40,722 bases of DNA, taken from Nitrospira sp. (GTDB taxonomy: Bacteria; Nitrospirota; Nitrospiria; Nitrospirales; Nitrospiraceae). A model generated the notes under the pieces. It was given only the letters and a program-made list of their open reading frames with translations. It was not told the DNA's origin and did not search any database. Location of the stretch: assembly GCA_023248215.1 (NCBI GenBank), contig JAHFEW010000037.1, forward strand, positions 1 to 40,722, written 5' to 3'. Shown here piece by piece: positions 39,205-40,563 of the stretch (its first letter is position 1; each line of letters opens with the position of its first letter). A program made the position numbers and the translations under genes.

Positions 39205-39320
39205 TAGGGTGATCACTAGTCGAAATTTAACTTGCAGGTGAATACGTAGCGTGATGACTCGAGACTCATCATTTCCGCATCCGATTGCCATTCGAGACGG
39301 GCCACCGAATCGACAGTCAG

Positions 39321-39566
39321 TTAGAAATTCGTTTCTATACTGGAAGGAGTCTTATTCAGAACGGTGGCGGCGGCTTTCGAGAGGGCGGCGTCCTGCTCGT
39401 GGTCGAGCGCATAGAGGCGAAATTGCACGAGGCGGGCGGGAAGCAGATCCAGGAATTCTTCCAACGGCTCGGTCGACAGGCCCTTCGTGCCGGGATCATA
39501 GACGAGCAGGGGAATGCCGCGAGTGTCCTTGGGGCGGGAGAAAGAAAAGGTCCCGGGAGTCTTTGT
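39321..39566 (-). pseudogene. Open fragment without a start, likely gene remnant
   Basis: A minus-strand frame is open for about 80 codons between a TGA at 39569-39567 and a TAA at 39323-39321. It has no ATG. Its translation looks protein-like: RPKDTRGIPLLVYDPG, then LSTEPLEEFLDLLPARL and VQFRLYALDHEQDAALSKAA. I do not recognise the family. It may be the 3' part of a broken gene; the other five frames here look random. Confidence 0.35.
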
Positions 39567-39768
39567 TCAGACAGGCCTACTCGCCATTATCAGTGTATAG
39601 AACCACGCCATAGAACGTGCGAGGTCCAACGTCCTAGACCTCTTGTGTCTCGGATGAAAGCGCTATGCGTTGGAACCGCGCGGTCGTTCATCTCCACTGT
39701 CTCACATGGCCGGGCTGAGTGCTGAAGAGTGCATGAGAGCGGCCGTGTGCTGCCCATCACATGTCAGA

Positions 39769-39971
39769 AAGATCGGGCGGGAGTGTTGCCGCTAATCGCC
39801 GGATGGAGCGGAACCCAACTTGCCGCAGTGAGCGGCCCTTGCGCCTGGGAAGCAAGGGCGGAGCCGCTATTGTGTGAGGCTAGGCAAGCTGAGTTTAGCG
39901 GATTCGAGCGCGCAAGGTTTAGTTGGGTGCTCCCGGAGGTGTCTTCGCGGCAAACACTCCCGCCCGATCTT
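39769..39971. repeat. Extended imperfect palindrome (203 bp) with attC-like core motifs
   Basis: Nested inverted arms are seen. The outer pair is a perfect 19-base match (39769-39787 with 39953-39971, AAGATCGGGCGGGAGTGTT). It is followed by GCCGC with GCGGC, GGAGC with GCTCC, ACCCAACT (39813-39820) with AGTTGGGT (39921-39928), and CCTTGCGC (39837-39844) with GCGCAAGG (39910-39917). The left arm has an extra small hairpin of about 16 bases. ACCCAAC and GTTGGGT fit the RYYYAAC and GTTRRRY core sites of integron attC sites, 116 bases apart. The arms extend beyond those cores, which a simple attC would not do. No intact ORF is inside. Confidence 0.65.
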
Positions 39972-40116
39972 CATCCTTTTGTAGACCATACGCGAGAGCA
40001 ATCAGAGCGGTGGCTCCGGTTGTTTGCAGAAGAAATGAGGTCTTGCAATCGCACATCGTGAGGGGTAGCTCCCGCGCTCCCTGGCGCGTCCTGTTTCTGC
40101 GGAAAGGAGAGCCGGC

Positions 40117-40240
40117 GTGGCTCATCTACAGGGCCTATCGGCAATATGGGTATCGGTTGGCCGAGATTGCGGATTATTTGGGTGTCCATGCTGCCACGGT
40201 CAGCCGTCGCTTGAAGCGGGGCGAGCAGGCGAATGTGTGA
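40117..40240 (+). pseudogene. C-terminal fragment resembling a REP-associated (RAYT) transposase
   Basis: The translation LIYRAYRQYGYRLAEIADYLGVHAATVSRRLKRGEQ (read as IYRAYRQYGYRLAEIAD and YLGVHAATVSRRLKRGE) matches the helix-turn-helix tail found at the C-terminus of Y1 transposases of the RAYT group. Upstream residues in the same frame do not look like the rest of the enzyme, and the HUH motif is absent. I infer a decayed remnant. A DnaA- or sigma-like HTH is a less likely reading. It sits 146 bases after the 203-bp palindrome. Confidence 0.45.
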
Positions 40241-40254
40241 TTGCAAGACCCCTG

Positions 40255-40339: not shown

Positions 40340-40534
40340 CCACCTGGCGAGCCGCCGACAAGCGGGGCAAGTAGCAACATTAGCCTACTCCTCGCCTGGA
40401 GAACAGCGCAGGCAACAGTCAGGCGCTGCTGGAAAAGTAGAATGTCCCCCTTTCCCGTCCTCAGATTGCTTTCCATGCCCGTCTTGTCGGAGTAGAAAGT
40501 CTCCATCCATCGTTCCTTCCTCTTCAAGCGCTAG

Positions 40535-40563
40535 CAGGCTGTTGAAAAACCATTCTAACAGCC
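40535..40563. repeat. Short hairpin with a CAGGCTGTTGAAAAA end
   Basis: GGCTGTT (40537-40543) pairs with AACAGCC (40557-40563) around 13 bases. The end CAGGCTGTTGAAAAA (40535-40549) matches CAGGATGTTCAAAAA (40612-40626) at 13 of 15 positions, so the two belong to the same type of repeat end. Confidence 0.5.

Follow-up and report, generated by a model that had tools for sequence, protein, structure and literature searches.

A nested palindrome of Nitrospira as a probable copy of a widespread element with a covarying three-way-junction core

Bacterial MITEs are usually regarded as emptied transposons and are defined by their ends. Chunjie, QMITE2, Correia and ERIC are short, non-coding, palindromic and intergenic, carry terminal inverted repeats (TIRs) and target-site duplications, occur in size variants and give strong hairpin transcripts; the same description suits the family of elements analysed here, in which the hairpin transcripts are predicted ones. 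What differs is the part that is kept: in MITEs the ends are normally conserved and the interiors vary, whereas in this family a covarying core is common to several phyla and to unrelated ends. Chunjie of Geobacter uraniireducens, a MITE of 235 bp present in dozens of copies in Geobacter (PMC10969869), may be a member of the family; it was compared by description only and the novelty of the family is therefore provisional. No precedent for the element was found, and a literature search with its loop sequences returned nothing relevant.

Three other systems invite comparison. Integron attC sites resemble the copy studied here in being imperfect palindromes with box-like motifs, of which the folded strand matters, but the family is larger, contains a three-way junction, lacks a conserved GTT core and is not linked to an integrase or to cassettes. 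REP/REPIN sequences mobilised by RAYT proteins are likewise intergenic, folded and dispersed palindromes, but those of the family are much longer and have TIRs and target-site duplications, and neither REP hallmarks nor a RAYT gene beside the copies were seen. The structured RNAs of Rfam (6S RNA and others) share the covarying multi-helix architecture and the size of about 150-250 nt, but three scans of the window and its relatives against Rfam 15 at permissive thresholds gave no family match. A partial 6S RNA match (40.5 bits, under the gathering threshold) sits elsewhere in the genome, at G000:C80:24120-24194, and 6S RNA, which has a different architecture, was rejected as an identity of the element.

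The window, i.e. the whole analysed stretch of 40,722 nucleotides of a Nitrospira sp. contig, contains a 203-bp nested palindrome at positions 39769-39971. An earlier note had described it from the letters alone, and the palindrome proved genuine: its outermost arms (39769-39787 and 39953-39971) are 100% complementary over 19 nt, and it folds far beyond shuffled sequences, with -64.9 kcal/mol as DNA (shuffles -38.3, z -8.1) and -115.1 kcal/mol as RNA (shuffles -82.1, z -7.5); none of 200 shuffles folded as well. It has both this folding gain and many relatives, rather than being structureless and single-copy throughout its relatives. We consider, with a probability of roughly 60%, that it represents in Nitrospira a palindromic element of wide distribution, and that the conserved three-way-junction core of this element functions in the form of one folded single strand, most probably an RNA from the + strand. 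The parts of the element are as follows.

39769..39971, + strand: whole palindromic element in its Nitrospira form (outer stem and core); + is the best-folding strand
39769..39792, + strand: 5' outer arm, including the perfect 19-nt arm; pairs far better with its own arm than with arms swapped across loci
39796..39942, + strand: conserved 147-nt core; full-length match to covariance model R1, 138.9 bits
39804..39810, + strand: helix 2, 5' side (partner 39928-39934); covariation
39816..39824, + strand: helix 3, 5' side (partner 39916-39925); covariation; overlaps the supposed R boxes
39828..39833, + strand: helix 4, 5' side (partner 39908-39913), closing the three-way junction; covariation
39835..39859, + strand: side hairpin, helix 5 (39835-39842 with 39852-39859); G-C to C-G switches
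39860..39905, + strand: main arm, with helix 6 (39860-39869/39896-39905) and helix 7 (39878-39882/39886-39890); covariation
39870..39895, + strand: near-invariant internal loop and its helix, 5'-CUGUNUGAG...CGAGUUU-3' (alignments A2 and A6)
39948..39971, + strand: 3' outer arm; complementarity, and energies of own versus swapped arms

The suggestion in the earlier note that the palindrome contains an attC site rested on two boxes, ACCCAAC (39813-39819) and GTTGGGT (39922-39928), which do lie at these positions, fit RYYYAAC and GTTRRRY and are suitably spaced. The complementarity noted beyond them is also real; helices extend well outside the boxes, the outer stem by about 40 bp, and inside them as well. 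In relatives, however, the GTT of the R' box is not conserved: it is replaced by GTC in L018, L020, L071 and others with pairing restored, the box upstream of nadA has the form GTCTGGT or GTCGGGT, its opposite side having changed to match, and distant members carry unrelated sequence at both positions. The genome does encode integron-type integrases (G000:C181:4650-5621, 450 bits; G000:C149:3352-4290, 386 bits, with an internal stop), but these matches, which exceed the search cut-off, are on other contigs; none was found on the contig of the window, where a nearby integrase had been proposed as a check, and copies occupy orthologous loci which are not integrons. A crude scan of the short contigs C181 and C149 detected no attC site, which says little. 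The palindrome can thus hardly be an integron attC site or a cassette remnant.

The core was defined by an alignment of 37 sequences with 48 consensus pairs. Its long stem, interrupted by small internal loops, leads to a three-way junction, from which a side hairpin and a main arm branch off. In the main arm a near-invariant internal loop places CUGUNUGAG opposite CGAGUUU; the version in the window is TTGTGTGAG...TGAGTTT. Double changes were observed in 25 of the 48 pairs in this first alignment (A2), which MAFFT had built without structure. With 79 sequences from several phyla, compensatory double changes affect 45 of the 48 pairs, although this alignment was fitted to the covariance model and leans towards it. 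As in a structured RNA, the covariation score of the 79 sequences (0.575) exceeded those of both the column-shuffle control (0.164) and the controls with slid partners (0.06-0.11), and one single strand was favoured. The outer arms differ in sequence among loci and yet pair with their own partner, at a mean of -43.6 kcal/mol compared with -25.5 kcal/mol for swapped arms. The possibility that the core is coding sequence was rejected, given the conserved stops (TGA, TAG) within it; the one open reading frame of this region that was scanned, at 39285-39725 upstream, had no Pfam match.

The preference for one strand is consistent. G-U pairs outnumber A-C mismatches by about 3:1, both in near copies (98:33) and in distant ones (94:33), and in 70 of 76 copies the strand equivalent to + of the window is more stable than the complementary one (34/37 and 36/39, p<1e-6 in each case). 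Symmetry would be expected of a palindrome that exists only in double-stranded form, whereas the observed strands are not symmetric, and it is therefore one folded single strand that is under selection. Judged from sequence, this strand is most likely RNA rather than single-stranded DNA. The bias nevertheless fits a folded single-stranded DNA intermediate equally well, which is a point against interpreting the core as an RNA module.

Covariance model R1, which comprises the 147-nt core with its 48 pairs, matched 57 of 395 Nitrospirota genomes, some of them from distant families, and most matches were full-length. For other phyla, genome contigs were first scanned with a pattern and then with R1; bare pattern matches, many of which are expected by chance, were left out of the counts. 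Members matched by R1 were found in Geobacter, in Desulfobacterota, in MAGs of Pseudomonadota and in Lutispora, the sole Bacillota genome. The distribution of the family is patchy: R1 matched 16 of 117 genomes in the order containing Geobacter, and only Lutispora itself among the 148 genomes of its class. Collections of plasmids and phages gave no useful match. The loop CTGTYTGAG/CGAGTTT also occurs in shorter or simpler long hairpins of Bacilli, Butyrivibrio, Clostridia and a gammaproteobacterium (L233, L179, L236, L176, L249), which may be additional members that lack the side hairpin.

Within the Nitrospiraceae, DNA searches detected homologues in 10 of 61 genomes and in 49 of 175 genomes of the family with a relative as query, and a profile search located 77 places among the fetched loci. 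Many of these sites recur: 18 loci lie beside a monothiol glutaredoxin gene (grx4), 11 precede nadA, and 14 adjoin a TldD-like gene together with a gene encoding about 155 aa (gene names are our own reading of the sequences). Such shared locations indicate that the copies were inherited in place over a long time; they are old, low-copy and syntenic, and the source genome has only two, on the contig of the window (C43) and on C156. Compensatory changes have accumulated in place at orthologous loci, in 8 pairs in context A and in 9 pairs in context B. Only 3 pairs show such compensation in context C (nadA), where A-C exceeds G-U; upkeep of the fold may therefore vary by locus, and some copies, with context C as the weak case, are perhaps decaying.

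The low copy number and the conserved synteny beside grx4, nadA and the third locus would also suit a stationary small-RNA gene, or a terminator or 3'UTR structure, of the Nitrospiraceae which merely resembles mobile elements. This is very unlikely, since dispersed elements of other phyla match the model over its full length and have the same loop, and since presence within the family is patchy. Moreover, the copy in G007 is split in its side hairpin by an IS630-type transposase gene (L019:4876-5898) with an apparent TA target; the insert being this gene, the idea that the split copy carries an open reading frame in its loop was discarded. The neighbours of the copies are varied chromosomal genes, and the unbiased orientation of the copies relative to genes speaks against any fixed function in cis within mRNAs; a cis-regulator of a single gene was rejected on these two grounds. 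We also considered whether the outer arm in context A originated from an inverted grx4 tail, but this is not needed, as the same tail is present in element-free genomes. Genomes of genus g6 without the element (L292, L293, L295, L298, L299) have another nested palindrome, GCAGGGCATCCCTGCT...AGCAGGAACGCCCTGC, directly 3' of grx4, and palindromes appear to replace one another at this site. Tandem pairs of the element, about 220-250 nt apart and usually with one degenerate partner, were noticed in L017, L068, L074 and L083.

The copy in the window has no recognisable TIR and no target-site duplication. Outside the Nitrospiraceae, eight genomes contain 4-32 dispersed copies each, with sharp ends; these elements are about 190-300 bp long, have no transposase gene within them and are mostly intergenic. 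The 16 near-identical copies of G467 share the sharp ends CRGGCTGTTGCC...GGCAACAGCCYG, have unrelated flanks and are bordered by target duplications of 4 bp, with agreement at 83 of 120 positions and 10 perfect duplications out of 30 (0 of 5000 shuffles reach this). About 170 such ends occur in that genome, compared with 3 for a reversed control, and some belong to shorter core-less derivatives of 38, 100 and 139 bp. In G473, three subfamilies combine one core with three types of terminal repeat, and the subfamily ending in CTGGAGTTTCC has duplications of 8-11 bp (about 9 bp; 4 of 2000 shuffles), e.g. AACCAGAAT, ATCTTTTCA and GAGGGATCCTT. The copies of G469 end in GAGACCTTTGCATAAC and have 5-bp duplications (1 of 2000 shuffles). 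TIRs together with target-site duplication, as in MITEs, are thus present in all three genomes, and terminal repeats and duplication lengths vary both between and within hosts. The length of the target duplication is a property of the transposase. As the lengths differ, more than one enzyme has probably moved these ends, and one core is probably carried on MITEs with different transposases. A search with one Pfam family in two genomes gave matches in one of them, the six DDE_Tnp_1 matches of G467, none of which is flanked by the TIR.

TIRs, target-site duplications, short derivatives and a mostly intergenic spread are what would be expected of an ordinary MITE family, i.e. an internally deleted transposon whose core was inherited or spread horizontally without a function of its own, and stable hairpin transcripts from prokaryotic MITEs are known (PMC10969869). 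We regard this explanation as rather unlikely: a functionless interior would not be expected to keep nearly all of its pairs covarying, and its loop almost invariant, from phylum to phylum as the ends change, nor does this explanation suit the strand bias or the compensatory changes at fixed loci. It is still less probable that movement depends on the core as a folded site in single-stranded DNA, comparable to attC or to the ends of IS200/IS605, with one strand recognised by an as yet unnamed enzyme. The strand asymmetry and the dispersal agree with such a site, but the TIRs with their 4-, 5- and ~9-bp duplications indicate several double-strand (DDE-type) transposases, and relatives with the same ends exist without the core.

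A constant core with changing ends is the reverse of an ordinary MITE, and the most economical interpretation of the core is a module that selection keeps as a folded RNA and that rides on MITEs. The elements would be moved in trans by any transposase fitting their ends, and the core may be a passenger or a helper module retained because of the way its RNA folds. The near-invariant loop is probably a binding site for a host factor or else a tertiary motif, and might in this way, for example, make insertions tolerable or the transcript stable. In Nitrospira the copies are presumably no longer mobile, although some loci continue to preserve the fold in situ. A fuller version of this account, in which a mobile structured RNA with its own function spread across phyla via the ends of unrelated transposons and is now a stationary small RNA in Nitrospira, is put forward only tentatively. 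With its centre kept by selection across phyla and its ends changing, the family suggests that a functional RNA can travel on short mobile palindromes. A simple covariance model suffices to scan for its members, Rfam would gain a family that it lacks, and the conserved loop provides a defined target for finding a binding partner.

The suggestion of the earlier note that the palindrome could be an unknown non-coding element or a mobilised palindrome comes close to the picture provided by the relatives; a RAYT protein as the possible mover was not borne out. Copies elsewhere bear TIRs and target-site duplications, which REP/RAYT elements are not known to produce. The neighbouring “RAYT-like fragment” is a stretch of merely 40 residues with a helix-turn-helix (HTH), for which Pfam and NCBIfam give generic HTH matches and do not name RAYT. 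It forms the last ~40 codons of an HTH protein enclosed in a separate inverted-repeat element of 212 bp (40039-40250), whose repeats GGTCTTGCAATCGCACAT and ATGTGTGATTGCAAGACC are 94% complementary; we take this scrap to be a probable remnant of a RAYT-type transposase. Closer to the edge of the contig, the sequence GCAGGCTGTTGAAAAA at 40534-40549 resembles the terminal repeat TTTTTCAGCAGCCTGC of L019 and the CAGGCTGTTGCC termini of elements in G467; it may mark where another transposon ends.
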